A stretch of 46,369 nucleotides of DNA from Bradyrhizobium sp. (GTDB taxonomy: Bacteria > Pseudomonadota > Alphaproteobacteria > Rhizobiales > Xanthobacteraceae). Of this stretch, positions 12,971 through 42,534 are shown piece after piece. Positions within the stretch are counted from its first letter, which is position 1; each line of letters starts with the position of its first letter. The notes beneath the pieces are model-generated. The model was not told the DNA's origin and made no database searches. It saw only the letters and a program-made list of their open reading frames with translations. Location of the stretch: positions 1 to 46,369 of the forward strand of contig JAUXWH010000185.1 of the NCBI GenBank assembly GCA_030681365.1. Reading direction: 5' to 3'. The position numbers and the translations under genes are program-made.

Positions 12971-13221
12971 GTCTAGGCTCCGCGCCTGCGCGAATTCGCG
13001 GCGCTTGAATTCGTCGGAAGCGACGATCGACTCGATGCGGAACAAAAATGAAGGAGGCGCGATCCGGATCCGGCGAAGCAACCGAGGCCTTCGAGTGAAA
13101 TCTCGCGGGACAAATCAGCGGCCATGGACTCGCTCGCCATCGCGCATTGCTCCGAACTCGACTGCTACAAATCTCGGGCAGGCCAACTAACGTTCACGAA
13201 AAAGAAACTTCAAATATTAAC

Positions 13222-28393: not shown

Positions 28394-30631
28394 TCAGAAC
28401 GTCGCGCCGGCCTTCACCATGAAGGTCCGGCCCGCCAGCGGATAGGCGCTGAAGCGGCCGGCGGTGAACGAGCTGGCGATCGCGTAGTCGTAATACAGCG
28501 CGTTGAGCAGGTTGTTCGCCGAGATCGACCAGAAGAAGTGGCCGTATTCGCCGCTCAGCTTGACGTCGACCGTGGCGTTGGCCGGAATCCGGCGCTGGGT
28601 GTTGGCCTGGTCGTTGTCCATGAAACGCTCGCTCCAGGCCCGCACCGTCGCGTCCGCCACGAGATATTTCTGCCAGATGTTCCAGGTCACGCCGCCGGAG
28701 GCGGTGTAGCGCGACACCAGCGGGACGTCCTTGCCGGCAAACTCGCCTTCGCGAAACACCGCGCGGGTATAGGCCGCGCCGCCGCGCAGCGTCACGCTGT
28801 CGCTGAGCCGCAGCGAGGCGCTGGTCTCCGAGCCGTAGCGCCGGGTCGGATCGAGGTTGACGTTGTAGAACAGCGCCGGGATGAAATGGATCTCGTTCTC
28901 GATGTCCATATTGTAGATGCTGGATTGCAGCTGGAAGCCGCCCGACTTGATGCGGAAACCGCCCTCGATGTCGTGCGAGGTCTGGGTCTTCAGATCGAAG
29001 TTGCCGGGGATGGGGTTGAAGAAGGCGTCGAAGGAGGGGCCGCTCGATAGTCGCTCATCGACATTGGGCGTGCGGAACGCGCGGGCGGCACGGCCGAATA
29101 CTGAAAACATATCGTTGAAACGGTGTTCGAGACCGATATGCAGGGCATATTGGCCTTCCCGGCTGTCCAGCGGGAGGTTTTGCACGGCGCAGTTGAACAA
29201 CAAAGCGCAATTCGGATCGTTGTTGAGAACGTCCCGGGCCTTCAGCGTGGTCTGTTGCAGCCGGCCGCCATAGGAGAAATCGGTCGTGGGCAACAGCCCG
29301 ATGGTTTGCTGAAAGTAGCCGGCCAGCGTCTGCTGGTGCAGATCATAGGTATGGATCGGCGTCCTGCCTTTGTCCGTCGGACGTTCCTGGTGGAAGGTCG
29401 CGTCGTAATAGTCGATGCCGGTCAGGATGGCCGAGGGCATCCCGAACATCACGTTCTTGATGCTGAGGCGCGGCGTGATCGACCAGGTCTGCAGGTGGGC
29501 GTCGACGTAGCTGTTGCCAAAGGCATTGAAGAAGGCGCTCTGTTGCTTCTTGTCGCGCACGCCGCCGTCGACGATCAGGTCGACGCCGTTGATCAAGGTC
29601 TTGGTGAAGCCCGCGGTGGCGCTGGCGCCCTGCTGGTTGCCGTAGTCAAGCGGGGTGGCGGCGCCGCGGCGGTTGGTGGCGAGTTCGTCCAGGCCGATCG
29701 AGGGATCGACCAGGCGGCCGCCGGGCAATCCCAGCTTCTGGTCGTCGCCCGAAAGGGTCACGAACGCGGAGAGGCCGGGCGTGGTGTAATTGAGGTTGCC
29801 GACGCCGTTGCGCTGGTCGAGCGCGTTGTTGACGCGGTAGCCGTCGGACTTGACGGCGTTGCCGTAGAACGAGGTCGACCACGGGCCGTGATTGGTCGCG
29901 GCCGAAATCGAGGCGAGGCGCGAGTTGAAGGAGCCGACGCCGGCTTCGGCGCGCATCCTGACTGGCGGGCCGCCGACGCCGTTCTTCAGCACGATGTTGA
30001 TGACGCCGCCGACGGCGTTGTCGCCGTACAGCACCGCGCCGCTGTTGCCGCGGCTGATCTCGATGCGCTCGATCGAATCGCGCGGAATGGTCGAGAAATC
30101 GACCCCGGCCATGTCGACGTCGTTGAGCCTGCGGCCGTTGATCAGCACCAGGGTGTTGGAGGTCGCAAAGGCGCCGAAGCCCCTGATATCGACGCTGGTC
30201 TTCACGCCGTTGACGCCGCCATACAGGCTGGTCAGCTGCACGCCGGGCGTCTGCGCGATGATCTCCTGCACGGACTGCGCCGGGGAACGGGCGATATCCT
30301 CCGCCGTGATCACCGAGGTCGAGGCGCCGACGATGCCGCTGAACTGCCGGACTGCGGTCGCGCCGGTTGCCGCGCGGCCCGATGGTGCCGCGTTCGGCCG
30401 GCTGGTGCGGCCTGCGCTGGGCACGGCGCGGCGCGAACCCTGTTCCTGATCGATCGCGGGCTTGGCCCGGGTGCGGTTTTCGTCTGGCGAGGTGATTTCG
30501 ATCGGCGGCAGCGCCTGGGCGAGCTGTTGCGCTCTCGCGGCTGAAACGCTGAAGAGGGCAGGAACAAGGAACGTGGTGGCAAGCAGACAGGCGCGACGCC
30601 GCTTTGCGGCGGTGGCGAAGATGGCAGACAT
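28394..30631 (-). CDS. btuB: TonB-dependent outer-membrane receptor, BtuB-like (cobalamin)
   Basis: A 745-residue receptor. The signal peptide is MSAIFATAAKRRRACLLATT followed by a cut near AARAQ, and a TonB-box-like PPIEITSP follows. The plug domain (about 110-230) has STSVITAEDIARSPAQSVQE, VDIRGFG and IERIEISRGNSGAVLYGDNA with GGVINIVLK. The rest is a 22-strand beta-barrel ending in phenylalanine (MVKAGATF), typical of outer-membrane insertion. A canonical cobalamin riboswitch in the leader and the divergent btuCDF genes identify the substrate class as vitamin B12 or related corrinoids. GAGG lies seven bases before the ATG. Its substrate could be another corrinoid, but not iron, given the riboswitch. 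Confidence 0.9.
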   Translation of the reverse strand: MSAIFATAAKRRRACLLATTFLVPALFSVSAARAQQLAQALPPIEITSPDENRTRAKPAIDQEQGSRRAVPSAGRTSRPNAAPSGRAATGATAVRQFSGIVGASTSVITAEDIARSPAQSVQEIIAQTPGVQLTSLYGGVNGVKTSVDIRGFGAFATSNTLVLINGRRLNDVDMAGVDFSTIPRDSIERIEISRGNSGAVLYGDNAVGGVINIVLKNGVGGPPVRMRAEAGVGSFNSRLASISAATNHGPWSTSFYGNAVKSDGYRVNNALDQRNGVGNLNYTTPGLSAFVTLSGDDQKLGLPGGRLVDPSIGLDELATNRRGAATPLDYGNQQGASATAGFTKTLINGVDLIVDGGVRDKKQQSAFFNAFGNSYVDAHLQTWSITPRLSIKNVMFGMPSAILTGIDYYDATFHQERPTDKGRTPIHTYDLHQQTLAGYFQQTIGLLPTTDFSYGGRLQQTTLKARDVLNNDPNCALLFNCAVQNLPLDSREGQYALHIGLEHRFNDMFSVFGRAARAFRTPNVDERLSSGPSFDAFFNPIPGNFDLKTQTSHDIEGGFRIKSGGFQLQSSIYNMDIENEIHFIPALFYNVNLDPTRRYGSETSASLRLSDSVTLRGGAAYTRAVFREGEFAGKDVPLVSRYTASGGVTWNIWQKYLVADATVRAWSERFMDNDQANTQRRIPANATVDVKLSGEYGHFFWSISANNLLNALYYDYAIASSFTAGRFSAYPLAGRTFMVKAGATF

Positions 30632-30751
30632 GGTTCAACCTCGGTATGACGTCAGTGGCACGTCACAGCGAACCAAGTCTCACCAGCGTGCTCGCGCATC
30701 CCTGATGAAGCTAATGTCTGTACTCCCCGACCGACATCTTCGCGTGTGACC

Positions 30752-30938
30752 ACGGCTGACGGCAGGTCTCCTGGCTCGCGGGTCGTTACCCTTCGTCGCC
30801 TTCCCAGGACCGAGATTCCCAGTGGCGTATGACGAAAGATTCGTCGCTTACAGTTGCGGGGGCAGCCGCGGCATTGGGGAAGTTTCCCCGCACCGCATTC
30901 CCTTTTGATCCCCAAACAAGGGAACCGTCGAGGATTAT
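30752..30938 (-). promoter_or_regulatory. Cobalamin (vitamin B12) riboswitch
   Basis: Read on the minus strand, the leader has GGTTCCC near the 5' end, the highly conserved GCTGCCCCCGCAACTGTAAG (30847-30866), the B12 box GCCACTGG (30819-30826) and the closing segment GCCAGGAGACCTGCCG before CAGCC. These are the defining parts of the cobalamin riboswitch, in the right order. It sits about 120 bases upstream of btuB, so adenosylcobalamin or another corrinoid should repress receptor synthesis. The exact ends are approximate. Confidence 0.95.
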
Positions 30939-30966
30939 GGTAGAAGTTTGTCAAACTCGAAGTCAA
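30934..30966 (-). promoter_or_regulatory. Putative promoter of the riboswitch-btuB transcript
   Basis: On the minus strand TTGACT (30961-30966) is followed after 18 bases by TACCAT (30937-30942), overlapping CATAAT (30934-30939). A start near GACGGTTCCC would place the riboswitch at the 5' end of the message. The match to the -35 box is good; the -10 box is ambiguous. Confidence 0.4.
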
Positions 30967-31020
30967 TCCCTTGAGCGGCCGCCCGTCTCCTGCGCGGGAC
31001 GAGTGCGCTATTTTTGCCGC

Positions 31021-31101
31021 ATGAGCCCTGTTGCCCGACCTGAAATCATGTATCAGCACGGCGCGGGTGGTTGGGGCAAGCAGCCTTGGAATGATCGATG
31101 A
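31021..31101 (+). CDS. Possible 26-residue leader peptide overlapping btuC
   Basis: The frame MSPVARPEIMYQHGAGGWGK then QPWNDR stops with a TGA that overlaps the btuC ATG as ATGA. A shorter version starts at MYQHG. There is no clear ribosome-binding site for the first ATG, so it might be leaderless (TATTTTT lies just upstream). It could couple translation into btuC. No homology is known to me. Confidence 0.3.
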   Translation: MSPVARPEIMYQHGAGGWGKQPWNDR

Positions 31102-32141
31102 GCGCAGGCGACGTCGTGGTGACAGCTGATATCGGAGCCGGGCGGCGCGTCGGCGTGACCACGGCGCTGGTCGCGCTCGTCGTGCTGCTGGTGCTGATCT
31201 CGCTCGGGACAGGCCCGGTGCGGCTGTCGCCGCCGGCCGTGATCGAAGCCCTGTTCGGCGGCGGCAGCGATGTGGCGCAGGTGATCGTGCGCGAGATCCG
31301 GCTGCCGCGCACCATCCTGGGCTTTGCGATTGGCGCCATTCTCGGGCTGTCGGGGGCGGCGCTGCAGGGGCTGCTGCGCAACCCGCTGGCGTCGCCGTCG
31401 CTGTTCGGCGCGCCGCAATCGGCCGCGTTCGGCGCGGTGCTGGTGATCGCGCTCGGGCTCGCCGATGTGCGCTCCTGGGCGCTGCCGGTCGCGGCGATCG
31501 CGATGGCCTTCGCTTCGGTGTTCGTGCTGCTGGCGATCGCCGGCCGCAATGCGGGGCTGCTGATTCTGATCCTCGCGGGCCTGGCCATCTCCAGCCTCGC
31601 GGGCGCCGCGACCGCGCTGGTGATGAATCTCTCCAGCAATCCCTTCGTGGTGCTGGAGATCGCGTTCTGGCTGCTCGGCTCGCTGGAGGATCGCAGTTTT
31701 CGCCACGTCATGCTGGCGCTGCCGTTCATCGCCGCCGGCGCGGTCATCCTGTGGAGCCGGCGCAACGCGTTTCGCGCGCTCAGCCTCGGCGAGGAGACCG
31801 CGCAGAGCCTCGGCGTCGATGTCGGCCGTCTCAGGCTGGCGGTGATCGCGGGCACGGCGCTCGGCGTCGGCGGCGCGGTCGCGGTCACCGGCACCATCGG
31901 CTTCATCGGCCTGGTGGCGCCGCACCTGATGCGGCCCCTGATCGGCCACGATCCGGCGCGGCTGCTGCTGCCGAGCGCGCTCACCGGTGCCGCATTGCTG
32001 TTGGCCGCCGATATCGCGGTGCGCCTCATTCCCTCGACCAGCGACATCAAGGTCGGCGTGCTGACCTCGATCATCGGCGTGCCGTTCTTCCTCTATCTGA
32101 TCCGGCGCGAGCGCCGCGCGCTCGGCGGAGGCGTGGCATGA
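31098..32141 (+). CDS. btuC: Vitamin B12 ABC transporter permease, FecCD family
   Basis: A 347-residue protein with about ten membrane segments. The motifs REIRLPRTILGFAIGAILGL, SGAALQGLLRNPLASPSLFG and, near the end, TGTIGFIGLVAPHLMRPLIG are typical of the FecCD/BtuC permease family (B12, haem, siderophore uptake). The genes btuD and btuF follow in order with a four-base ATGA overlap to btuD. Because the divergent receptor gene carries a cobalamin riboswitch, B12 is the likely cargo. There is no separate riboswitch in front of this operon. It carries corrinoid from periplasm to cytoplasm with the ATPase. Confidence 0.9.
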   Translation: MSAGDVVVTADIGAGRRVGVTTALVALVVLLVLISLGTGPVRLSPPAVIEALFGGGSDVAQVIVREIRLPRTILGFAIGAILGLSGAALQGLLRNPLASPSLFGAPQSAAFGAVLVIALGLADVRSWALPVAAIAMAFASVFVLLAIAGRNAGLLILILAGLAISSLAGAATALVMNLSSNPFVVLEIAFWLLGSLEDRSFRHVMLALPFIAAGAVILWSRRNAFRALSLGEETAQSLGVDVGRLRLAVIAGTALGVGGAVAVTGTIGFIGLVAPHLMRPLIGHDPARLLLPSALTGAALLLAADIAVRLIPSTSDIKVGVLTSIIGVPFFLYLIRRERRALGGGVA

Positions 32142-32914
32142 GCGCGTTCCTCACCGCGCAGGGGCTCAACGTCGAACTGGCCGGCCGCCTGGTGCTGAAC
32201 GATATCTCGCTGTCGCTCTCATCAGGGCATCTGGTCGCGCTGGTGGGGCCGAACGGCGCCGGCAAGACCACGCTGCTGCGCGCGCTCGCCGGGCTGTTGC
32301 CTTCGGACGGCGCCGTCCATGTCGGCGGCGAGCCGCTGTCGTCGCTGGCATTGCGCGACCGCGCGCGGCGTTTTGCCTATCTGCCGCAGGGCCACATCGT
32401 GCACTGGCCGCTGCCGGCGCGCGATATCGTGGCACTCGGGCGTTATCCGCATGGCGCCACCGATCCGGCGCGAATGTCGCCCAGGGACGCCGAGGCGGTG
32501 CTGCGGGCGATGCGGGCCACAGACGTGGTGGAATTTGCCGATCGCCGCGTCACCGAACTGTCCGGCGGCGAGCGCAGCCGCGTCGCGCTGGCGCGCGTGC
32601 TCGCGGTGGAGGCACCGGTCATCCTGGCCGACGAGCCGACCGCCTCGCTCGATCCGCGCTACCAGCTCGACGTCATGAAGAGTTTGCGCGCGGCGGCCGA
32701 TCAGGGCGCGCTGGTGATCGTGGTGACCCACGACCTCGGCCTCGCCGCCCGCTTCGCCGACACCGTGCTGGTTCTTTCCGAAGGTCGCCTCGTCGCGCAA
32801 GGCGCACCCGCCGCCGCGCTGTCCGAGCAGGTGATGGCGGACGTATTCCGCATCACCGCCTATCGCGCCGAATTCGAGCGCGCGGCGGTGATCGTGCCGT
32901 GGGCGGAAATCTGA
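32138..32914 (+). CDS. btuD: Vitamin B12 ABC transporter ATP-binding protein
   Basis: A 258-residue ATPase, MSAFLTAQGLNVELAGRLVL onward. Walker A is GPNGAGKTT (37-45), the Q-loop is in YLPQGH, the signature is LSGGERSRVALARVL, Walker B is PVILADEPTASLD and the switch His lies in VVTHDLG. It belongs to the FepC/BtuD group that works with FecCD permeases. Its ATG overlaps the btuC stop (ATGA) and its own stop overlaps an ATG (TGATG at 32912-32916), from which btuF may once have started. The longer in-frame extension to 31751 is a shadow inside btuC. Confidence 0.92.
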   Translation: MSAFLTAQGLNVELAGRLVLNDISLSLSSGHLVALVGPNGAGKTTLLRALAGLLPSDGAVHVGGEPLSSLALRDRARRFAYLPQGHIVHWPLPARDIVALGRYPHGATDPARMSPRDAEAVLRAMRATDVVEFADRRVTELSGGERSRVALARVLAVEAPVILADEPTASLDPRYQLDVMKSLRAAADQGALVIVVTHDLGLAARFADTVLVLSEGRLVAQGAPAAALSEQVMADVFRITAYRAEFERAAVIVPWAEI

Positions 32915-32932
32915 TGATTACTCATCTCTCGA

Positions 32933-33052
32933 CCGTCATCCTGAGGTGGTCGCCCTGCGGTGCGTTCGCACCGCAGGGCGAGCCTCGAAGGATGGACGGC
33001 CCGGGACAGCATCCTTCGAGACGGCCGCTGCGCGGCCTCCTCAGGATGACGG
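32933..33052. repeat. Dispersed palindromic repeat, family E, inside the btuF leader
   Basis: The ends CCGTCATCCTGAGG and CCTCAGGATGACGG are exact inverted repeats; inside are CCCTGCGGTGCG/CGCACCGCAGGG and CGAAGGATGG/ATCCTTCGAG. It lies between the btuD stop and the btuF signal peptide, and its last bases carry the ATG at 33046. Confidence 0.85.
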
Positions 33053-33876
33053 GCATACTTTTGTGCATGGCCGCACTCGCGATCAGCGGCGCATCGCTCG
33101 CACCCGCCTCCGCGGCACCTCTGCCGCGCATCGTCTCGATGAACGTCTGCACCGACCAGGTGCTGCTGACGCTGGCCGACCCCGAACAGATCCTCGGCCT
33201 CAGCCGGTTTTCCCGCGACGCCTGGGTGACCGGCGATGTCGGGCGCTACCCGACGCTGTCGGGCGGCGCCGAGGACGTGCTGGTGCTGAAGCCCGATATC
33301 GTGGTCGCCAGCGTGTTCGACAAGCGCGCGACCCGCGATCTGCTGAAGGCCAACGGGTTGCGCCTCGCCGAGCTCGCGGTGCCCCGGAACCTGACGGAGG
33401 TGAAGGACCAGATTCGCGAACTCGGCGCCATCGCCGGGCATCCCGATCGCGCGGCGCGCGAAATTGAAAAACTCGACGCGGCGCTGGCGCGGGCGCGCCG
33501 GGCCGTCGCTGAAAGGCGCTACCGCGTGCTGCCGCTGTCGCGGCGCGGCTGGGTCGCGGGTAGCGACAGTTTTGTCGGCTCGCTCTTGGCCGAAACCGGG
33601 TTGTTCAACGCCGCCGGCGATCTCGGCTTTGCCTTCGGCGGGTTCGCCTCGCTGGAGGCGATCGTGGCGCAAAAACCCGATCTGCTGCTGGTGTCGCAGG
33701 CCGGCGATTTCGCCGGCGATGACGGCCAGGCCTTTTTGCTGCATCCCGCGCTGGAGCGGTTCTATCCGGCGGAAAAACGCATCGTGATTCCCGAGCGGCT
33801 GACCGAATGCGGCGGCGTGATGCTGGCGGAAGCGCTTGATGTGCTGGTGGCCGAGCTGCGGCGGGTCGGGCGTTGA
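33046..33876 (+). CDS. btuF: Vitamin B12 ABC transporter substrate-binding protein
   Basis: A 276-residue periplasmic protein from MTGILLCMAALAISGASLAP, which is a signal peptide cut near ASAAP. The mature part LPRIVSMNVCTDQVLLTLAD, LKPDIVVASVFD and FGGFASLEAIVAQKPDLLLV matches the BtuF/FepB-type (helical-backbone) binding proteins. The frame is open further up to ATGs at 32914 and 32899, but those residues are encoded by the palindromic repeat and would put about 44 extra residues before the signal. I choose 33046, although this ATG lies within the end of the repeat and has only a weak AGG as ribosome-binding site. Third gene of the btuCDF operon. Confidence 0.87.
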   Translation: MTGILLCMAALAISGASLAPASAAPLPRIVSMNVCTDQVLLTLADPEQILGLSRFSRDAWVTGDVGRYPTLSGGAEDVLVLKPDIVVASVFDKRATRDLLKANGLRLAELAVPRNLTEVKDQIRELGAIAGHPDRAAREIEKLDAALARARRAVAERRYRVLPLSRRGWVAGSDSFVGSLLAETGLFNAAGDLGFAFGGFASLEAIVAQKPDLLLVSQAGDFAGDDGQAFLLHPALERFYPAEKRIVIPERLTECGGVMLAEALDVLVAELRRVGR

Positions 33877-33916: not shown

Positions 33917-35236
33917 TCACGCCTCGTCGCCATCCCCGGCTACCTCGGCCGGTCCGGCCGGGGGCGGGGTCTCGAGCGGCACCGCCGTGTACCGCGCCGG
34001 GATGTTGACCGGCTTGTATGTCGGGTCCTGCGCGATCTTGTCGAGCGCGGATTGGTGGATCAGGGCGCCCTCGGGAATCAGCCGCGGCTCGCAGCACGGG
34101 ATATAATAGCCCAGCATCGATTTTCGCTCCGGCCATTCCTTGTACTTGTCCTTTTTCGGGAGGACCTCGAGCGCGCGCCAGCCGGCGTTCATCGAATCGT
34201 GCGGCTGCCAGTCGCGGGACGTGGGATTGTCGGGATAGGGCAGGAAGTCCGGCGCCACATAGTCGAACGGGCTGCCCTTGCGCTTGCGGCCCCAGCCGAG
34301 CTGGTTGACGGTGCTGCGGTCGACCTTGAGGCCGTGCTTGACGGCTTCCTCGATCATCCACAGCAGCGGATATTTCGACAGCGCCGATTGCTTTTCCGGA
34401 TAGCCGCCGCCGACATCGGAATGCACGCCGGCGAACCAGACCTGCACGCTGTCCTGGTCGGTCCATTTCGATTCCGGGGCGTAGCGGTGCGGCCGGAATT
34501 TGCCCGCCTGCCACGGCTGCGGCCGGAACATGCGGCGCCGCTCGTCGATCGAGATCGCCTGCCGGAAAATCTCGATCGAGGGATTTTCCCGGATGAAGGC
34601 CAGTTCCTCCAGGCTCCACGGGCTGAACTGCAGCTTGAACGGATTGATCCGGTCCCAGCGCGGCACGATCACGCTGGCCACGGTGTCCCAGACCCCGACG
34701 AATTTGATGGTCGGCCATTTCACGGACAGGATGCGCGCATACTGCGCCGCCTGGTCGTCTTTCTGGTCGGGGGCGACGTGATCGGTGGAAAACTGCTTGT
34801 AGGCGGTCAGGCCGGAGCCTGCGAGATTGTTCTGCGGCAGCGAGATCAGCCCGATCTTGTGGATCAGCGCCGCCAGCACCCGCACCGTATAGGCGCCGCG
34901 GGAAAACCCGAACAGATAGATGTCGTCGCCCTCGCGGTGGTTCTCGACGATGAACTGGTAGGAGGCGAGCACGTTGTCGTCGAGGCCGTATCCGAACGCC
35001 AGCCCGATCACCAGATTGAAGTTCTGCTTGAACCGATGGAACGGATCCGGCCGCTCCAGCGTGCCGACGCCGGGATCGTAGAACACCAGCTGGCGCGGAC
35101 GCGTCCGCTCGGTCTTGCGCAGCGTCCGGTACAGCTTCAGCACATTGGAAAGATCGTCGGAAATCTCGTTGCCGGTGCCGTCGCAGCAGATGACGATGTG
35201 GCGCTTTTCGGGTTTCGGTTCGGGCGCGTCGTTCAT
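33917..35236 (-). CDS. DUF2235 alpha/beta-hydrolase (Tle1-like)
   Basis: A 439-residue protein beginning MNDAPEPKPEKRHIVICCDG with TGNEISDDLSN, the opening signature of DUF2235. The nucleophile elbow is GFSRGA (S112); likely partners are D184 in VGVWDTV and H272 in GVHSDVGGGY, a full catalytic triad. The family includes type VI secretion phospholipase effectors (Tle1) and many uncharacterised bacterial hydrolases. No VgrG, PAAR or immunity gene is adjacent, so an effector role is not supported here. GGGGAG lies nine bases before the ATG. It converges on btuF with a gap of only 40 bases. Confidence 0.88.
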   Translation of the reverse strand: MNDAPEPKPEKRHIVICCDGTGNEISDDLSNVLKLYRTLRKTERTRPRQLVFYDPGVGTLERPDPFHRFKQNFNLVIGLAFGYGLDDNVLASYQFIVENHREGDDIYLFGFSRGAYTVRVLAALIHKIGLISLPQNNLAGSGLTAYKQFSTDHVAPDQKDDQAAQYARILSVKWPTIKFVGVWDTVASVIVPRWDRINPFKLQFSPWSLEELAFIRENPSIEIFRQAISIDERRRMFRPQPWQAGKFRPHRYAPESKWTDQDSVQVWFAGVHSDVGGGYPEKQSALSKYPLLWMIEEAVKHGLKVDRSTVNQLGWGRKRKGSPFDYVAPDFLPYPDNPTSRDWQPHDSMNAGWRALEVLPKKDKYKEWPERKSMLGYYIPCCEPRLIPEGALIHQSALDKIAQDPTYKPVNIPARYTAVPLETPPPAGPAEVAGDGDEA

Positions 35237-35365: not shown

Positions 35366-36805
35366 TCACCCACATCCCATATGTCCCTCAAACCACCGGC
35401 TCAGCGCTCCCTCCAGCGGCCCCCAGGCCCGCGCCAACCCGCCGAACTGCTTCACCCCCTCCCGATACATCCCCCGCAACTCCCGCTCGATCGCGGGCAG
35501 ATCGACACCGACCACCTTTCCCTCGCGCACGATGGTCTGCCCGCCGACCACGACATCGCGCACCAGCGCGGCGTTGCCGCGGGCGAACAATAGCTGCAGC
35601 GGGTCGACCTCCATGATCCGATCGCGGTCGAGGCGGTCGAGGTCGAGCACCACGAAATCGGCGGCGGCGCCCGGCGCGAGTTCGCCGGGACCGGGGGCGC
35701 CGGTGGCGGCGCGGCCGTTGCGGATGACGAGGCTGAAAAATTCGGGGCGAGTCCAGGTGCGCGCGAAGCCGAGGCCGCCATGGGCGAGCTGCACCAGCCG
35801 CATCTCGCGGATTACGTCGTCGTCTTCGTCGAGCGCAAGACCATCGACGCCGACCGCGATGGCGCAGCCGCATCGGTGCGCGGCGGCGATCGGGGCAAGG
35901 CCGGAATGCAGATGCAGGTTGGAGGAGAAATTGGTGACGAGGCGCGCGCCCGACGCGGCGATCATTTCCAGCTCGTCCGGCCGGGCGTGGATGCCATGGG
36001 CCAGCGTCAGCCGGGGTGACAGCAGGCCGATGTCGCGGAGATGGCGCACGACGCCATCGGGGAAATGCCGGTCGGCCCAGGCGCGCTGATAGACGGTCTC
36101 CAGCAGATGCATGTGGACGCGGCGGCCGGTACGCGCGGAATTCTCGGCGATGGCTTCCAAAAGCGGGCGCGAGCACCATTGCACGCCGGCGGGGCCGAAC
36201 TGCACGTCGATCTTCGGCCCTGATATTTCGGCCGCGATAGCCTCCGTCAGCTCGATGTAGTCGAGCGACATCGCGGGGCGGACGAACAGCTGCTCGATGC
36301 TGCTGCGGTCCGCGGCGGAGAGGGCGGACAACACCGGTTCGCTGTCGCCGTAGACCACCGGGTTCTGGTCGCGCACCGCGAGCGCGAAGGCGATGCGGAT
36401 GCCGACGTCGTTGGCGGCGCGCGCGATCTCCTTCGCTTCCTCGATCAGCGGCAGTTTGCCGCTCGGCCTTGTGTAGTGAATCATCATCGCGGCGCAGCCG
36501 GCGCGGGCCGAGCGCGCCATCGCGGCGGCGGCGGCGAGGTACGGGTCGGGCGGGGTGCCCATGGCGGAGCGCAGGATCCAGCTTTCCAAGGGCATATCGA
36601 CGGCGCCGAACGAGGACGCGGTCGGGCGGGCGTGATCGTGGGCGTTGACGAAAGCGGGGAGAATGAAAGTGCGCGGCGCCGGTGTGGGCGCGGAGCCTGG
36701 CGTAATCTCGGTGATGAGGCCGGCGTCGTGCCGCAGCACGACGTTATGGATTGTGCCGCGGTCGGGGCCGGCGAACAGACTGGTTGCTGTTACTTCGGTG
36801 ACCAT
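35366..36805 (-). CDS. Amidohydrolase, ATZ/TRZ-SsnA-like (deaminase-type)
   Basis: About 479 residues from MVTEVTATSLFAGPDRGTIH; AAGGTG lies shortly before this ATG. The frame is open to 36853, but the added residues come from a palindromic repeat. Metal ligands are H56 and H58 in NAHDHARP, later VHMHLLET, LAHGIHA and an Asp in GVDGLALDEDDD. The pattern fits the amidohydrolase group of chlorohydrolases and deaminases acting on N-rings, such as guanine deaminase, SsnA and the s-triazine enzymes. It lies downstream of the NitT/TauT ABC genes on the same strand, which suggests it acts on the imported compound. The substrate is unknown. Confidence 0.85.
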   Translation of the reverse strand: MVTEVTATSLFAGPDRGTIHNVVLRHDAGLITEITPGSAPTPAPRTFILPAFVNAHDHARPTASSFGAVDMPLESWILRSAMGTPPDPYLAAAAAMARSARAGCAAMMIHYTRPSGKLPLIEEAKEIARAANDVGIRIAFALAVRDQNPVVYGDSEPVLSALSAADRSSIEQLFVRPAMSLDYIELTEAIAAEISGPKIDVQFGPAGVQWCSRPLLEAIAENSARTGRRVHMHLLETVYQRAWADRHFPDGVVRHLRDIGLLSPRLTLAHGIHARPDELEMIAASGARLVTNFSSNLHLHSGLAPIAAAHRCGCAIAVGVDGLALDEDDDVIREMRLVQLAHGGLGFARTWTRPEFFSLVIRNGRAATGAPGPGELAPGAAADFVVLDLDRLDRDRIMEVDPLQLLFARGNAALVRDVVVGGQTIVREGKVVGVDLPAIERELRGMYREGVKQFGGLARAWGPLEGALSRWFEGHMGCG

Positions 36806-36820
36806 GATGCACCTTGCCAA

Positions 36821-36917
36821 CTCGTCATGCCCGGGCTTGACCCGGGCATCCATCTCACTTCACAAAAAGCATTCTTCGAAGAAGATGGATGGCCGGGTCA
36901 AGCCCGGCCATGACGAG
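36821..36917. repeat. Dispersed palindromic repeat, family D
   Basis: The ends CTCGTCATGCCCGGGCTTGA and TCAAGCCCGGCCATGACGAG are inverted. It lies between the binding-protein gene and the amidohydrolase gene, and its coding shadow MDARVKPGHDE appears as a false N-terminal extension of the amidohydrolase. Confidence 0.85.
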
Positions 36918-36947
36918 AACGGGAGTCCTCCCGCGTCGGTTCTTCCT

Positions 36948-37973
36948 TCAATTCGCCGTATACACCAGCTCCCGCTCGGCGCGCGGCGGCAGGAATTCGC
37001 GTGAAAACACTTCCGCCGGTGCCGGCGCGCGGGCGAGCTGATAGCCTTCGACCACGATGCCGATGGCGCGGGCCATGCGGTCGTCCTTGACGTCGCCGAC
37101 GCCGATCTCCTTCATCTCGGGCGAGACGATCAGTTTTTCGTAGGAGAATTGCAGGCGGCGTTTTTCGACCTCGGCATTGATCATGTTGTCGAAGGCGACC
37201 GTCGCCTTCATGCCGGCGTTCTGGTCCTTGGCCACCGCGATCACCGCCTTGTTGACGGCGCGGACCAGGCCCGCCACCGCCTTCGGGTTCGACGCCAGCA
37301 GCTTCTTCGACACCATCATGCCGTTGGAATAGAGATCGAGGCCGTAATCGCCGAACGAGAACCAGTTGAAATCCTTGTCGGGGTCCTGCCGGTTCAGCAC
37401 CAGGTTGAAATAGCTGGTGATGTTGAACACCAGCGCGCCGTCGATGTCGCCCTTGATCAGCATCGGCTCCTGCAGGTTCGGCGCCATGTTGGAGATCTTG
37501 ATCTTGGCGTTGTCCAGCCCGTTCTTGCGGGCGAACACCGGCAACAGCCGCGTGGTCGGCGTGCCCTGCGCGCCGCCCAGCGTGTGCGTTTCGAAATCCT
37601 TGATGGTCTTGATGCCGCCGCTCTTCTTGGAAACGATCGCGAATGGCGGCTGGTTCCAGATCATGTAGACCATCACAGGCGCTTCCGCCGGCCGGGTCGA
37701 GGCGTTCTGGATGATGGCGTTCATGTCGCCGAACCCGGCATCATAGGCGCCGGACATCACCCGCGTTACCGTCGCGCCCGAGCCTTCGCCCTGGTCGATC
37801 ACGACGTTGAGGCCTTCCGCCTTGAAGAATCCGTTGTCCCTGGCATAGAAGAACGCGGCGTCGCTGCCCTGCGTCTTCCAGCCCAGCGTGAATTTTATGG
37901 TGGTTTCCTGTGCCGCGGCGGTGCCTGCGAACAGGAGCATTCCAAGCAGTGCGGCGCTTGATCTCTTCAGCAT
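36948..37973 (-). CDS. ABC transporter substrate-binding protein, NitT/TauT (SsuA/THI5-like)
   Basis: A 341-residue periplasmic binding protein. The signal peptide MLKRSSAALLGMLLFAGTAA is cut before QETTIKF. Then FTLGWKTQGSDAAFFYARDN and GFFKAEGLNVVIDQGEGSGA fit the THI5/SsuA family, whose members bind pyrimidines, sulfonates, nitrate and other small anions or heterocycles. GAGGAG lies upstream of the ATG. It is the third gene of an ATPase-permease-binding-protein operon. Amidohydrolases at both ends of the cluster suggest a nitrogen heterocycle as ligand, which is inference. Confidence 0.88.
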   Translation of the reverse strand: MLKRSSAALLGMLLFAGTAAAQETTIKFTLGWKTQGSDAAFFYARDNGFFKAEGLNVVIDQGEGSGATVTRVMSGAYDAGFGDMNAIIQNASTRPAEAPVMVYMIWNQPPFAIVSKKSGGIKTIKDFETHTLGGAQGTPTTRLLPVFARKNGLDNAKIKISNMAPNLQEPMLIKGDIDGALVFNITSYFNLVLNRQDPDKDFNWFSFGDYGLDLYSNGMMVSKKLLASNPKAVAGLVRAVNKAVIAVAKDQNAGMKATVAFDNMINAEVEKRRLQFSYEKLIVSPEMKEIGVGDVKDDRMARAIGIVVEGYQLARAPAPAEVFSREFLPPRAERELVYTAN

Positions 37974-37995
37974 GTCGATCTCCTCAAATGAGCGA

Positions 37996-38772
37996 TTACG
38001 TGGTGATCAGGTCGTTCTTGCGGGTGGCCCAGCCGGTGACACGGCCCTCGATGACGGCGAAGATGGCGTAGAGCGCGACGCCCAATGCTGCGAGCACGAA
38101 CAGGCCGGCGAACACCAGGGGGACGTTGAAATTCGACGACGCGGTCATCATGACGTTGCCGATGCCGCGGTTGGAGGCGACGGTCTCCGACAGCACCGCG
38201 CCGACGAAGGCGTAGGAGATCGCGACCTTCAACGAGGCGAAGAAGAACGGCATGGTGCGGGGCAGGCCGACATTCCACAGGATGTCGAACTTGGTGGCGC
38301 CGAGCGCCTTCAGCACATCTTCCAGTTCGGGTTCGGTGGTGGCCAGGCCCGTCGCGATGTTGACCACGATCGGGAAGAAGCAGATCGACAGCGCGGTCAG
38401 CACCGCCGGCACCGAGCCGGAGCCGAACCACAGCACGAAGATCGGCACCAGCGCCACTTTGGGAATCGAGGAGAAGCCGACCAGCAGCGGGTAGGCCGTG
38501 TCATACGCGGTCTTCGACACCCCGATGATGGCGCCGAGCACCACGCCGAGCACCACGCCCAGCACGAAACCGATCATGGTGGTGGCCAGCGTCTGCAATA
38601 TATGCGGCCACAGCAGCGGGAATTTTTCGATCAGGGTGACGATGATCTGCGAAGGGCGCGGCAGCACCAGGTCGGACATGCCGGTGATCAAACAAAACAG
38701 TTCCCAGCCGACGAAGAACAGCACGATCAATCCGATCGACCAGGCCTTTTGGCGGTAATCGAGCTCAGGCAT
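37996..38772 (-). CDS. ABC transporter permease, NitT/TauT type
   Basis: A 258-residue membrane protein with about six membrane segments. The ATPase contact loop (EAA motif) is ALGATKFDILWNVGLPRTMP, and SSIPKVALVPIFVLWFGSGS is typical of the SsuC/TauC permeases. It overlaps the end of the ATPase gene by eight bases (ATGCCTGA) and the binding-protein gene follows after 22 bases, so all three are co-translated. It forms the membrane channel of the importer. Confidence 0.92.
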   Translation of the reverse strand: MPELDYRQKAWSIGLIVLFFVGWELFCLITGMSDLVLPRPSQIIVTLIEKFPLLWPHILQTLATTMIGFVLGVVLGVVLGAIIGVSKTAYDTAYPLLVGFSSIPKVALVPIFVLWFGSGSVPAVLTALSICFFPIVVNIATGLATTEPELEDVLKALGATKFDILWNVGLPRTMPFFFASLKVAISYAFVGAVLSETVASNRGIGNVMMTASSNFNVPLVFAGLFVLAALGVALYAIFAVIEGRVTGWATRKNDLITT

Positions 38773-39655
38773 CGCTCGCCACTCCTTCCGGTTTGGCCGC
38801 GCCGTGCTCGCCGACGATAAATTCGCGCAGGCGCTGGTTCAGCGCGACGAACTCCGGCTCGAAGGTCATCGCCACGGTGCGCGGACGCGCGAAGGCGACG
38901 TGACGATCATCGAGGATGCGGCCCGGCCGCGCGCTCATCACGCAGATGCGGCTGGCGAGGAAACCCGCCTCGCGCAGATCGTGGGTCACCAGCAGCACGG
39001 TCGGCCGGTGCAGGATCCAGAGCTCCTGCAGGATCGACCACAGTTCTTCCCGCGTGAACTGGTCGAGCGCGCCGAACGGCTCGTCGAGCAGCAGCATGCG
39101 CGGCTCGTGGATCAGCGCGCGGCACAGATTGGCCCGCTGCAGCATGCCGCCGGAGAGCTGCCACGGAAAGCGGCGGCCGAAACCCTTCAGGCCGACCTGT
39201 TCGAGCAGCGCATTGGCCTTGTCGCGGAATGTGGTGCGCTTGAGTTTGGCGAATTGCGAACGATAGGGCTCGACGATCTTCAGTGGCAGCATGATGTTCT
39301 GCTCGATCGTCAGCCACGGCAGCATGGTCGGATTCTGGAACGCCATGCCGATCCGCAGTGCTTTCGCCGCGACCTCGCGGCCGCCGAGGATGACGACGCC
39401 GGTCGAGGGCTGCACCAGCCCCGCCACCAGCCGCAGGATGGTCGACTTGCCGCAGCCTGACGGTCCGACCAGGGCGACGAACTCGCCGTCGCCGATCTTC
39501 AGGCTGGTGGTGGAAAGCGCGGGCACGGCGCGGTCGCCGCGGCCGAAGGTGACCGAGACGTCCGACAGTTCGATCGCGACCGGCGCTTTTTGGTCGCCGG
39601 AATCGGATGAAACGGGGCTGCCGGCGAAGGCAGGGCTTGGCTGCATGCGCATCAT
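38765..39655 (-). CDS. ABC transporter ATP-binding protein, NitT/TauT type
   Basis: About 296 residues from MMRMQPSPAFAGSPVSSD; the exact start is uncertain (39655, 39652 or 39646), and the frame's TTG at 39673 overlaps a proposed operator. Walker A is GPSGCGKST, the Q-loop is in GMAFQNPTMLPW, the signature is LSGGMLQRANLCRAL, Walker B is MLLLDEPFGALD and the switch His is in VTHDLREA. This is the SsuB/TauB group. It is the first gene of the importer operon and shares a 200-base divergent control region with the GntR-type regulator. Confidence 0.9.
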   Translation of the reverse strand: MMRMQPSPAFAGSPVSSDSGDQKAPVAIELSDVSVTFGRGDRAVPALSTTSLKIGDGEFVALVGPSGCGKSTILRLVAGLVQPSTGVVILGGREVAAKALRIGMAFQNPTMLPWLTIEQNIMLPLKIVEPYRSQFAKLKRTTFRDKANALLEQVGLKGFGRRFPWQLSGGMLQRANLCRALIHEPRMLLLDEPFGALDQFTREELWSILQELWILHRPTVLLVTHDLREAGFLASRICVMSARPGRILDDRHVAFARPRTVAMTFEPEFVALNQRLREFIVGEHGAAKPEGVASDA

Positions 39656-39663
39656 GAAACGAA

Positions 39664-39673
39664 GTGCATGCAA
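39664..39673. promoter_or_regulatory. Proposed GntR operator, site 1
   Basis: GTGCATGCAA, a near-palindrome just upstream of the importer ATPase start. The same ten bases occur at 39767-39776 and, inverted, at 41206-41215. Binding by the adjacent GntR-family protein is inferred. Confidence 0.5.
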
Positions 39674-39766
39674 GCGGGATGCCAGCGGTTTTCGGCTGTT
39701 TCCCCGGGTGATCGCCGGGAAGCGGGGCCGTGCGGCGGATTCAAATTAGGCAATCGGTGCAACAAA

Positions 39767-39776
39767 GTGCATGCAA
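39767..39776. promoter_or_regulatory. Proposed GntR operator, site 2
   Basis: GTGCATGCAA in the centre of the divergent region between the importer operon and the regulator gene. With flanks it reads AAGTGCATGCAATTG, and the AATTGCATGCAC core is identical, inverted, to site 3. Its position suits control of both directions. Confidence 0.55.
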
Positions 39777-39854
39777 TTGAGGCGCTCAGATCGTCAGCGA
39801 ATATGATAAGGAACTGCGCATAGTATAAAGACGCACCGTCTTCAGGATCAGCCC

Positions 39855-40619
39855 ATGGCGCCGCGCGCTGCCGCCAAGACCGCCGAATCGTCCGACAAGG
39901 TCGGCGTCATCTGCCGCGCGCTGCGCCGCGCCATCATCGAGCAGGCGCTGGAGCCCGGCGCCAAATTGCCGGAGGATTCGCTCGGCGAAAGGTTCGGCGT
40001 CAGCCGCACCATCGCGCGGCACGCGCTGGGCCAACTCGCCGCCGAAGGCCTGGTCGAACTGCGCCGCAACCGCATCGCCGTGGTGGCGACGCCGAGCTGG
40101 CAGGAAGCCCGCGACGCGTTCGACATCCGGATCGAACTCGAGCGCCTCGTCGTGCGTCAGCTCGCCGGCAAACTGACCAAGGCGCAGGTCGCGGCCCTCA
40201 ACGCCCATGTCGACGCCGAGGATTCTTCGCGCGGCGGCAGCGATGCGGTGTCGATCAGGCTCGCCACCGAATTTCATATCCTGCTCGCCAGCATGACCAA
40301 CAGCCCGATCCTGGTGCGCTACGTCAGCGAGGTGGCCTATCGCTGCTGCCTGACGCTGTCGCTCTACAGCCGCCCGCATTCGTCGGAATGCGGCGTCACC
40401 GAACATCGCGCGATCATCGCCGCGCTGGTGAAAGGCGACGGGCCTAAGGTGATGGAGCTGATGCACAGCCATCTCGATTCGGTCGCCACCCGCGCCCTGG
40501 TAGCGCCAACGCCGCAGCGCGGCCGCGATTTGCTGGATATTCTGGCGCCCTATGCCGAGGAAGATGGGGCCGACCGCGTGGTGAAGCTGGCGAAGGTTGT
40601 GCGGGGGCGGACGCGGTAG
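39855..40619 (+). CDS. GntR-family transcription regulator with FCD domain
   Basis: A 254-residue regulator. The N-terminal winged helix (about 15-80) has ICRALRRAIIEQALEPGAKL and FGVSRTIARHALGQLAAEGL. The C-terminal FCD ligand domain has AFDIRIELERLVVRQLAG, EFHILLAS, GVTEHRAIIAAL and MHSHLDSVATRAL, with the Asp/His set that binds a metal near the effector. FCD regulators usually repress catabolic or uptake genes until a small acid or related effector binds. It lies between the importer operon (divergent) and the SnoaL and CodA-like genes. Three GTGCATGCAA-type sites near these promoters are its likely operators. Confidence 0.9.
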   Translation: MAPRAAAKTAESSDKVGVICRALRRAIIEQALEPGAKLPEDSLGERFGVSRTIARHALGQLAAEGLVELRRNRIAVVATPSWQEARDAFDIRIELERLVVRQLAGKLTKAQVAALNAHVDAEDSSRGGSDAVSIRLATEFHILLASMTNSPILVRYVSEVAYRCCLTLSLYSRPHSSECGVTEHRAIIAALVKGDGPKVMELMHSHLDSVATRALVAPTPQRGRDLLDILAPYAEEDGADRVVKLAKVVRGRTR

Positions 40620-40627
40620 TTGAAGCC

Positions 40628-40728
40628 GTCATTCCGGGGCGCGCGTTAGCGCGAACCCGGAATCTCGAGATCGTACACTCATCGCTCAAGATTCCGGGTT
40701 CGATGCTTCGCATCGCCCCGGAATGACG
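40628..40728. repeat. Dispersed palindromic repeat, family B, copy 2
   Basis: The ends CGTCATTCCGGGGCG and CGCCCCGGAATGACG and the inner AACCCGGAATCTCGAGAT match copy 1 (14232-14315). It separates the convergent regulator and SnoaL-like genes and may help end transcription. Confidence 0.85.
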
Positions 40729-40740
40729 ATGAACCTTTCG

Positions 40741-41160
40741 CTACGCCTCGATCCCGCGCTTCACCAGGATCCGCTCCGCGCTGTCGTTCCACACGTCCAT
40801 CTTGACGATGAACCCGTCCCGCACCACGAAGCGGTCGACATAGCGGTTGCCCTCGAACGCCGTGCCGTCGATCCATTCGCCGTACAGCGTGCCCACCGAA
40901 TAGACCACGGTCTCGTCAGCGCCGGGACACACGTCGAAACGGTCCATCTTCTTCTTCACCCAGCGATAGCGCGCGGCGTTGAAACCGGTCGGCCCGCGCG
41001 GGTGGTCGAATTCGCGCCCGCCCGTAAACGTGATGATGGTGCCGGGCTTCATAAAGGCCGCCGCGGCGTCGGGATCGGGGATCATCGACGCCGTCAGATA
41101 CGCCTCGACGATTTCGGCGTCGCTCGGCCTTTTCGGTTCGGTCTTGGCGGCAATGGACAT
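40741..41160 (-). CDS. SnoaL-like / nuclear transport factor 2-fold protein
   Basis: A 139-residue protein from MSIAAKTEPKRPSDAEIVEA; AGGAGAG lies eight bases before this ATG. AYLTASMIPDPDAAAAFMKP, then TGFNAARYRWVKKKMDRFDV and RYVDRFVVRDGFIVKMDVWN, fit the cone-shaped NTF2-like fold (SnoaL group), which includes isomerases, hydratases, dehydratases and ligand-binding proteins. It is divergent from the CodA-like gene, with a proposed GntR operator in the shared 135-base control region. I infer that it handles an intermediate of the same pathway. No catalytic residues can be named. Confidence 0.78.
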   Translation of the reverse strand: MSIAAKTEPKRPSDAEIVEAYLTASMIPDPDAAAAFMKPGTIITFTGGREFDHPRGPTGFNAARYRWVKKKMDRFDVCPGADETVVYSVGTLYGEWIDGTAFEGNRYVDRFVVRDGFIVKMDVWNDSAERILVKRGIEA

Positions 41161-41205
41161 TGTTGGTCTCTCCTGATTGCAAAATACTACAATCCGGCAC
41201 TCAAA

Positions 41206-41215
41206 TTGCATGCAC
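41206..41215. promoter_or_regulatory. Proposed GntR operator, site 3
   Basis: TTGCATGCAC, the inverse of sites 1 and 2, between the divergent SnoaL-like and CodA-like genes. The 12-base core AATTGCATGCAC is exact with site 2. It would let one regulator control both gene pairs. Confidence 0.55.
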
Positions 41216-41295
41216 ATAATTTGAACAATCCGTGCTCAGCCTGCACACAATCTGGAGCTGCTCTTGCCCCGCGCCTTCGCTAGTTTGTCCGCCCG

Positions 41296-42534
41296 ATGAC
41301 CGCCAAAACCGCCTTCGACCTGATCTTCCGCCGCGCGGTGACGCCGGCTTTCGCCACGCCTGTCGACATCGGCGTCTCCGCCGGCCGGATCGCCGCGGTC
41401 GCGCCGCGGCTGGAAGCGGAAGCCCGCGAAATCCATCTCGACGGCAAACTCGTGCTTTCAGGCTTCGTCGACACCCACATCCACCTCGACAAGGCCTGCC
41501 TGCTCGGCCGCTGCGGCCATCACCACGGCAGCGTCACCGAGGCCATCCAGGCGGTCGCCGCCATGAAGCGCGATTTTACGGCCGAGGACGTCTATGCGCG
41601 CGGCGCCAAAGTGCTGGAGCGCGCGATTCTGGCCGGCACCACGCGGATGCGTACCCATGTCGAGATCGATCCGCGCATCGGCTTGCGCGGTTTCGAGGCG
41701 ATCAAGGCGCTGAAGCGCGATTACGCCTGGGCGATCGATCTCCAGGTCTGCGTGTTTCCGCAGGAAGGCCTGACCAACGATCCCGGCGCCGAGGAGCTGT
41801 TGGTCGCTTCCTTGCGCGATGGCGGTGAGGCGATCGGCGGCTGCCCCTATATGGACACCGACCCGATGGCGCATCTGGAAAAACTGTTCGACCTCGCCCA
41901 GGCGTTCGACGTCGACGTCGACCTGCATCTCGATTTCGACCTCGATCCTTCATGGTGGCATCTCGACGAGGTCTGCCGGCAGGCCGAGCGCCGCAACTTG
42001 CAGGGCCGCGTCGCCATCGGGCACGCCACCAAACTGTCGGCGCTGCCGCCGGCCGAATTCGACGCCGCCGCGGCCAGGCTGGCGCGCGCCGGCGTCGCCG
42101 TCACCGTGCTGCCCGCCACCGACCTCTATCTGATGGGCCGCGAGGCCACCCACCTCGTGCCGCGCGGCCTCACTTTGGCGCACAAGCTGGTCGAACACGG
42201 CGTCGTCTGCTCGGTAGCCACCAACAACGTGCAAAATCCCTTCACCCCGTTCGGCGACGCCTCCCTGCTGCGGATGGCGAACTTCTATGCCAACGTCGCG
42301 CAGGCCAGCGTGGGCGAATTCGACGCCTGCCTCGACCTGGTGACGAAGCTGCCCGCGCGCCTGATGAATCTGCGTGACTACGGCATCGCGCCCGGCAACT
42401 CCGCCGACCTCATCGTGCTCGACACCGCGAGCGGGGCCGGCGCCATCGCCGAACTGCCCGACGTGCTGATGGGCTTCAAGCACGGCCGGCAGGTGTTCGA
42501 GCGGCAGAGGGCGGTGCTGATGCGGCCGGGGTGA
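41296..42534 (+). CDS. CodA-like amidohydrolase with altered catalytic residues
   Basis: A 412-residue protein that aligns by eye over its length with E. coli cytosine deaminase CodA. Matching features are FVDTHIHLDKACL (H61, H63), VFPQEGL (Q156), H211 in LHLDFDLDP, H243 in GHATKLSAL, and the end LMNLRDYGIAPGNSADLIVL. Two residues essential in CodA differ: Glu217 is replaced by F214 and Asp313 by N310 (VATNNVQNPF). It is thus probably not a cytosine deaminase. The neighbours (NitT/TauT importer, GntR regulator, SnoaL-like protein, another amidohydrolase) suggest nitrogen-compound catabolism. No clear ribosome-binding site precedes the ATG. Confidence 0.85.
   Translation: MTAKTAFDLIFRRAVTPAFATPVDIGVSAGRIAAVAPRLEAEAREIHLDGKLVLSGFVDTHIHLDKACLLGRCGHHHGSVTEAIQAVAAMKRDFTAEDVYARGAKVLERAILAGTTRMRTHVEIDPRIGLRGFEAIKALKRDYAWAIDLQVCVFPQEGLTNDPGAEELLVASLRDGGEAIGGCPYMDTDPMAHLEKLFDLAQAFDVDVDLHLDFDLDPSWWHLDEVCRQAERRNLQGRVAIGHATKLSALPPAEFDAAAARLARAGVAVTVLPATDLYLMGREATHLVPRGLTLAHKLVEHGVVCSVATNNVQNPFTPFGDASLLRMANFYANVAQASVGEFDACLDLVTKLPARLMNLRDYGIAPGNSADLIVLDTASGAGAIAELPDVLMGFKHGRQVFERQRAVLMRPG

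Follow-up and report, generated by a model that had tools for sequence, protein, structure and literature searches.

A conserved Bradyrhizobium locus predicted to import and hydrolyse an amino-substituted cyclic ureide or imide as a nitrogen source

In a 46,369-nucleotide (nt) stretch of Bradyrhizobium sp. DNA (contig JAUXWH010000185.1; hereafter the window), we analyzed seven genes at 35366-42534 that an earlier note had described as a NitT/TauT importer with a THI5-like binding protein, two amidohydrolases (AH1 and AH2), a SnoaL-like protein (hereafter SnoaL) and an FCD regulator lying together. Pfam and NCBIfam scans of the window proteins confirmed all of the named genes (Table 1), SnoaL being recognized through its match to the solved structure 9mua. 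The three importer genes and AH1 occupy the minus strand with the FCD regulator divergent from these four, and the SnoaL gene (minus) and AH2 (plus) form a second divergent pair. The true start of AH1 is probably at 36805, because the first 16 listed codons overlap a 25-nt inverted repeat, and that of the ATPase is probably at 39655, which places site 1 outside the ATPase gene; the SnoaL start predicted from the sequence is 41160. REP-like inverted repeats lie between genes of the set at 36831-36907, reaching into the listed AH1 start, and at 40627-40728, with arms of 25 nt at 96%, and of 18 nt at 94% and 15 nt at 100%.

Table 1. Genes and predicted operator sites of the locus, in window coordinates.
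Feature	Position	Strand	Basis
AH1 (amidohydrolase), predicted to deaminate an amino-substituted ring	35366..36853	-	PF01979
NMT1/THI5-like periplasmic binding protein of NitT importer	36948..37973	-	PF09084
NitT importer permease	37996..38772	-	PF00528
NitT importer ATPase	38765..39673	-	PF00005
Site 1, GTGCATGCAA, predicted operator	39664..39673	+	sequence search
Site 2, GTGCATGCAA, predicted operator (spacing to site 1, 103 bp)	39767..39776	+	sequence search
FCD-GntR regulator	39855..40619	+	PF07729 + PF00392
SnoaL, NTF2/SnoaL-like protein, predicted tautomerase or isomerase	40741..41160	-	
Site 3, GTGCATGCAA, predicted operator in the SnoaL/AH2 gap	41206..41215	-	sequence search
AH2, protein of the cytosine-deaminase/AtzC fold in which the Asp and Glu of CodA are missing; predicted partner for ring opening	41296..42534	+	

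The importer has the composition of the NitT/TauT type, namely an NMT1-type binding protein (PF09084, 103.5 bits, cut-off 20.5), a permease (PF00528, 95.6 bits, cut-off 26.4) and an ATPase (PF00005, 105.9 bits, cut-off 25), all three above the Pfam cut-off, and the binding protein has weak relatives in the PDB (4nmy, E 2.5e-12; 3uif; the THI5 entry 4h6d). The regulator combines FCD (PF07729, 72.1 bits, cut-off 24.3) and GntR (PF00392, 54 bits, cut-off 27) domains and is thus an FCD-type GntR protein. AH1 (PF01979, 93.8 bits, cut-off 25) is closest in the PDB to 4dyk (E 8.6e-23) and 7ww2 (E 5.4e-21), the latter titled an isocytosine-specific deaminase, so that its closest solved relatives are adenosine-type and isocytosine deaminases; its metal and catalytic motifs (H72/H74, H249/E252, H286 and D337) were conserved in 29/29 aligned rows. 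Assignment of AH1 as an 8-oxoguanine deaminase, a formiminoglutamate deiminase or any other NCBIfam equivalog was rejected, since all scores fell below the curated cut-offs, and the 6-chloronicotinate hydrolase Cch2 was dropped as a named relative, the closest cch2 match in such Bradyrhizobiaceae genomes being given as <30% in the excerpt of PMC3511419.

AH2 (PF07969, 87.9 bits, cut-off 29.7) is a fold and sequence relative of AtzC. It scored below the cut-offs of all three curated cytosine deaminase models (171.5 vs 483, 218 vs 438 and 207.6 vs 403), and has F214 and N310 at the positions of CodA E217 and D313, which we take to be the residues that cytosine deaminase uses; with these two residues missing and the scores below cut-off, AH2 as a CodA-type cytosine deaminase was rejected, and a reading of it as an ordinary hydrolase is not supported. 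The four metal-site His and the Gln of the FPQEG motif are kept in 29/29 rows. AH2 is the least explained part of the set, its catalysis being unexplained because the CodA-type Asp and Glu are lacking.

SnoaL gave no Pfam or NCBIfam match at 0.001. Its top PDB sequence match is 9mua, ‘4OT-SnoaL from P. atlanticus’ (E 1.4e-23), which together with 9mup represents its nearest solved sequence relative and was named Tautomerase by the depositors. Different from that protein, the window SnoaL has 139 residues, leaving no room for an N-terminal 4OT domain, and the match begins at chain residue 60, where the window protein begins. The structure comparisons of this analysis are compatible with other folds as well. 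The family is large, with 4,207 proteins matched in the database at an E value of 0.001 and at least 576 confirmed genome stretches, and the names among the 120 matches listed are of hypothetical, nuclear-transport-factor-2 and ketosteroid-isomerase-like kinds. Distant and often longer SnoaL relatives, some fused to a 4OT-like N-terminus, differ from the window locus in sitting with LeuCD-, PEP-mutase- and HyuAB-like genes (our loci L066-L080; labels assigned by eye), which, judging by this gene content, points to a different undescribed pathway.

The earlier note had also proposed that the genes share operator-like sites, and this was borne out: GTGCATGCAA occurs in three exact copies (at 39664, 39767 and, on the minus strand, 41206), confined to the two divergent promoter regions of the set, and a search of the window that tolerated one mismatch added no further copy. 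As 3.4 matches were expected by chance for the one-mismatch search, copy number alone is uninformative, and the 8-mer TGCATGCA reached three copies in 7 of 100 shuffles; the evidence lies in exactness, position and conservation. Among 16 loci chosen for carrying a NitT permease, FCD and AH1, whose relatedness means that they share DNA by descent, TGYATRCA was present at corresponding places in 16/16 and occurred 37 times in 8,652 promoter-proximal bases vs 4 times in 284,730 other bases. The site pair beside FCD was found in 14 of the 16, with a spacing of 100-104 base pairs (bp) in 12 of them and of 112 and 114 bp in the other two, and the site between SnoaL and AH2 was found in 8/8 NitT loci in which these genes are divergent. 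It was seen in 0/3 loci with SnoaL and AH2 downstream of AH1 in one gene row, and the exact site preceded SnoaL in 0/4 same-genus loci that have neither FCD nor importer, two of which carry a one-mismatch word. In a wider sample of SnoaL loci (L031-L065), the motif lay near the SnoaL, FCD or LivK start in 20/35, including 11/18 loci with a Liv-type importer, which indicates that, in this set, the site predates the NitT importer. TGCATGCA was also the most enriched 8-mer in 84 SnoaL and FCD upstream stretches from loci outside L081-L160 (28 vs 0.77 expected). Taken together, the seven genes likely form a single regulon.

The set is also conserved. Whether the genes stay together elsewhere had been named as a point on which the proposal would stand or fall, and they are kept together in other genera. 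With genes called by our own codon-usage script and labels taken from BLAST clusters (labels for RidA, SDR, LeuCD and HyuAB, and for AtzD-type genes outside L064, L192 and L194, were assigned by eye), the NitT importer and FCD accompanied AH1 in 16/16 loci with AH1 at 62-74% identity, and AH1, SnoaL and AH2 lie immediately downstream of the importer in three loci (L181-L183). Presence was nested in the 26 same-genus genomes within the family set, the own genome excluded: AH1 occurred in 13, SnoaL in 17 including those 13, and AH2 in 24 including those 17. More broadly, SnoaL matches were obtained in 66/296 family, 31/386 class and 17/299 phylum genomes, sets that overlap and of which the family and class counts include weak relatives; AH1 was found in 84/296 family genomes at 1e-40, AH2 in 130/296 at 1e-60, and the binding protein in 49/98 same-genus genomes at 1e-60, 47 of these at ≥84% identity.

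To describe what surrounds SnoaL, we counted the genes within 8.5 kb of 115 SnoaL genes (≥48% identity), a sample that includes one fusion-type protein (L079) and excludes 13 of 128 genes below 48% identity. AH2 or a PuuE-like protein lay near 103 of them (AH2 26, PuuE-like 76, both 1), and the single locus with both (L049) has its PuuE-like gene in a second NitT cluster. The excess of PuuE arises because the 80 named loci (L081-L160) were selected for resembling a PuuE-type locus; the named SnoaL loci are mostly from Comamonadaceae and other Burkholderiales (Variovorax, Hydrogenophaga, Acidovorax, Curvibacter and others), and L076, L110, L111, L140 and L143 had no gene labelled as SnoaL. Other neighbours were FCD (62), a PRK08310 amidase cluster (37), a GGT-type hydrolase (18), HpxZ (12), AH1 (11) and a racemase (9), and the importers were of Liv type (48), NitT (11) and Pot type (9), with several types together in some loci. 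A SnoaL tree (115 rows with the window in and L079 out, 146 columns, bootstrap unsettled) puts the NitT loci at no fewer than two positions (the branch of the window, and L181-L183), and its starred branches require at least three changes for AH2 and at least five for PuuE-like. In Variovorax and others (L113-L160), SnoaL and the PuuE-like gene stand as a bare two-gene row with no importer or amidase nearby, the smallest form of the module.

Several neighbours connect the set with triazine, hydantoin and ureide chemistry. An AtzD-type gene adjoins a distant AH1 relative in at least 7 of 12 loci (L189-L200; counted by eye); the two that were scanned, from L192 and L194, exceeded the cut-off for cyanuric acid hydrolase (360) with scores of 550.5 and 554.5, as did one in the SnoaL locus L064 with 446.3, and the L192 protein aligned over 356/356 residues to the cyanuric acid amidohydrolase 4nq3 (E 6.1e-227), presumably that of Azorhizobium caulinodans. 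The enzyme of this species has been characterised (excerpt of PMC4051656). A parallel cluster of a related NitT importer, an AH1 relative, an AtzD-type hydrolase, an AllB-like protein and an SDR (L189, L191-L195 and L199) may be a complete, separate uptake pathway for cyanurate or barbiturate. HpxZ (NF033625, 201.1, cut-off 135) and AtzE (715.5, cut-off 461) adjoin set members in other species, a neighbouring racemase matches hydantoin and allantoin racemases, and the GGT-type neighbour has as its top solved match 5hft (E 5.7e-95), which we take to be the oxamate amidohydrolase HpxW. In the own genome, AtzE-, AtzH- and AtzF-type lower enzymes are encoded away from the locus, on contig C130, with allophanate hydrolase at 803.6 (cut-off 511), HpxZ/AtzH at 199.6 (cut-off 135) and AtzE at 752.4 (cut-off 461), beside a biuret-hydrolase-like protein at 259.9 bits, below its cut-off of 370. 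Oxamate amidohydrolase activity of HpxW is cited in the excerpt of PMC5270733, and according to that of PMC6219798, AtzH is an NTF2-fold enzyme and atzG-E-H clusters of unknown purpose occur in many Proteobacteria.

None of the closest known systems compared here has the same content. Compared with s-triazine and cyanuric acid catabolism (AtzC, AtzD, AtzE-G-H and AtzF), the window locus has no AtzD and its AH2 is without the CodA Asp and Glu, while the atzDGEHF operon, as given in the excerpt of PMC6219798, includes neither SnoaL nor FCD nor the NitT importer. The HpxZ, AtzE, HpxW-like GGT and allantoin/hydantoin-type racemase genes of the allantoin/oxalurate (hpx) kind adjoin set members elsewhere, and none is in the window locus. 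The PuuE-like partner, one of which was scanned (L156), is not a PuuE allantoinase by its score (107.5 vs the TIGR03212 cut-off of 424.6). PuuE (E 5e-20) is a closer match of the PuuE-like protein than HP0310 (E 2e-9), and imidase was weighed as a name for this partner. The betaproteobacterial row of SnoaL, PuuE and amidase resembles the imidase and half-amidase reactions in the nicotinate catabolism of Aspergillus, in which a PuuE-related ring opener (HxnM) is followed by an amide hydrolase (HxnN; excerpt of PMC9304392), but no oxygenase or reductase genes of the Aspergillus pathway were labelled in the bacterial loci. In agreement with the earlier note, no described pathway with this gene content was found in searches of open-licence PMC papers; the unit is of a known general kind, with a gene content not found described.

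Based on these results, we put at about 0.5 the probability that this conserved locus, likely one regulon, imports and hydrolyses an amino-substituted cyclic ureide or imide of pyrimidine, s-triazine or hydantoin type as a nitrogen source; the substrate class is a reasoned prediction, and the reactions are predicted from sequence. The binding protein, permease and ATPase would import the compound, AH1, with its catalytic motifs intact, would strip an exocyclic amine with release of ammonia, SnoaL would shift the ring's hydroxy/keto tautomer or a double bond, and AH2 would open the ring, a slot that the PuuE-like protein would take in betaproteobacteria. The open ureide would be finished to ammonia and CO2 by AtzE, PRK08310 or GGT-type amidases, which adjoin the set in other species, and in this genome by the AtzE, AtzH and AtzF encoded elsewhere. 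In this scheme the FCD regulator would sit on both the importer's paired sites and the single SnoaL/AH2 site, and would be released on binding the substrate or an intermediate; the paired sites, about ten helical turns apart, are perhaps looped, a guess from their spacing. The ‘complete uptake, hydrolysis and control unit’ of the earlier note thus stands as a conserved and apparently co-regulated unit, while its completeness is not supported, as the lower enzymes are on another contig. Its guess of a pyrimidine or triazine-like ring is in the right area, given the distant AH1 relatives beside cyanuric acid hydrolase and the neighbours of allantoin, hydantoin and carboxybiuret kinds. No pointer to its creatinine-like compound turned up, no search aimed at creatinine genes having been made, and oxidised-guanine products, haem-derived maleimides and 2,3,6-trihydroxypyridine were weighed as substrates with nothing in the analysis pointing there. 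More tentatively, SnoaL and its exchangeable ring hydrolase might constitute a new, widespread two-step opening of nitrogen rings, in which a free-standing NTF2-fold tautomerase makes a keto imide from an aromatic-like hydroxy ring and either AH2, without the usual Asp/Glu, or the unrelated PuuE-like enzyme cleaves it.

A number of observations weigh against this nutrient pathway. All 28 aligned AH2 members have Asn at the CodA D313 place and no Glu at E217; AH2 also occurs without SnoaL, as the family counts of 130 vs 66 genomes suggest, though obtained at different thresholds; AH1 and AH2 are also found apart; and 12/115 SnoaL genes have neither partner near, L055 among them having had an AH2 match in another search. 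The AH2/PuuE split largely tracks alpha- versus betaproteobacteria. As for regulation, 15 of the 35 SnoaL loci in L031-L065 have no motif near core promoters, and none of the mostly betaproteobacterial loci L081-L160, in which other words are enriched, is among those with TGCATGCA near promoters. In the own genome (4.36 Mb in 332 contigs, 68% complete), AtzD was not found, but the same search also gave 0/14 in control genomes, and 18 matches to the PRK08310 amidase included none over the cut-off. Finally, NitT, FCD and AH1 stand without adjoining SnoaL and AH2 in five loci (L184-L188), and the separate SnoaL-AH2 loci of two genomes of this or a related kind (L044 and L045) are without the site. 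The five loci would suit a locus with two functions under one regulator, the NitT importer and AH1 importing and deaminating one compound and SnoaL and AH2 treating a different, perhaps internal, ureide, as would the SnoaL-AH2 pairs without importer or regulator in genomes without AH1 (L033-L036) and the other importers that accompany SnoaL in most loci. We consider this division unlikely, as both promoters share sites in all eight divergent NitT loci, a single gene row is found in L181-L183, and all 13 same-genus genomes with AH1 also carry SnoaL and AH2.

Somewhat less probable still is that the catalytic roles are exchanged, SnoaL being a hydrolytic or decarboxylating enzyme and AH2 a non-hydrolytic family member (isomerase, lyase or binding protein). 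The absence of the CodA Asp and Glu from AH2 would be accommodated, and there are precedents, NTF2-fold AtzH having been proposed as a decarboxylating amidohydrolase (excerpt of PMC6219798) and the opening of 2,3,6-trihydroxypyridine by Rhodococcus and Arthrobacter being attributed to an NTF2-type ‘polyketide cyclase’ (excerpt of PMC9304392), but the retained metal-site His and FPQEG Gln of AH2, and its alternation with a PuuE-like hydrolase, speak against this exchange. The NMT1/THI5 family membership of the binding protein and the nucleobase deaminases among AH1 relatives might instead suggest a unit for clearance or salvage, not nutrition, acting on a damaged nucleobase or on a cofactor pyrimidine such as a thiamine precursor. 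This is improbable: no thiamine gene model, TenA and formylaminopyrimidine deformylase included, was among the families matched by the seven genes, for which reason thiamine salvage was rejected as the function, and Liv and Pot types replace the importer in other species, an exchange that fits a nutrient better than one cofactor. That the importer serves a sulfonate, nitrate or another NitT substrate with the hydrolases as bystanders is the reading we regard as most improbable, since its top NCBIfam matches, although of SsuA, taurine, nitrate and SaoP/SaoA kinds, are all below the curated cut-offs, and AH1 stays with this importer type in all 16 close-homologue loci.

If a nitrogen-ring pathway of the predicted kind is encoded here, assigning a function to SnoaL would annotate a large set of soil-nitrogen genes in one step, AH2 would be a test of whether an amidohydrolase-fold enzyme works in the absence of the Asp on which cytosine deaminase depends, and the regulator with its conserved site would offer a ready reporter for substrate finding.

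The flanks of the locus are seemingly unrelated. A Tle1-like phospholipase family catalytic domain protein (33917-35236, minus strand; PF09994, 274.2 bits) adjoins the set without a GTGCATGCAA site, and ribosomal L28 follows the set. Elsewhere in the window, a third amidohydrolase (21128-22870, minus strand; PF07969, 259.5 bits) is distant from the set and also without a GTGCATGCAA site, an open reading frame of 3,919 residues at 1322-13081 on the minus strand contains domains of the cadherin type (PF00028, 254 bits; PF17803), and a TonB-dependent receptor (PF00593, PF07715) near a Peripla_BP_2 binding protein (PF01497) at 28394-33876 resembles a metal or cobalamin uptake cluster.

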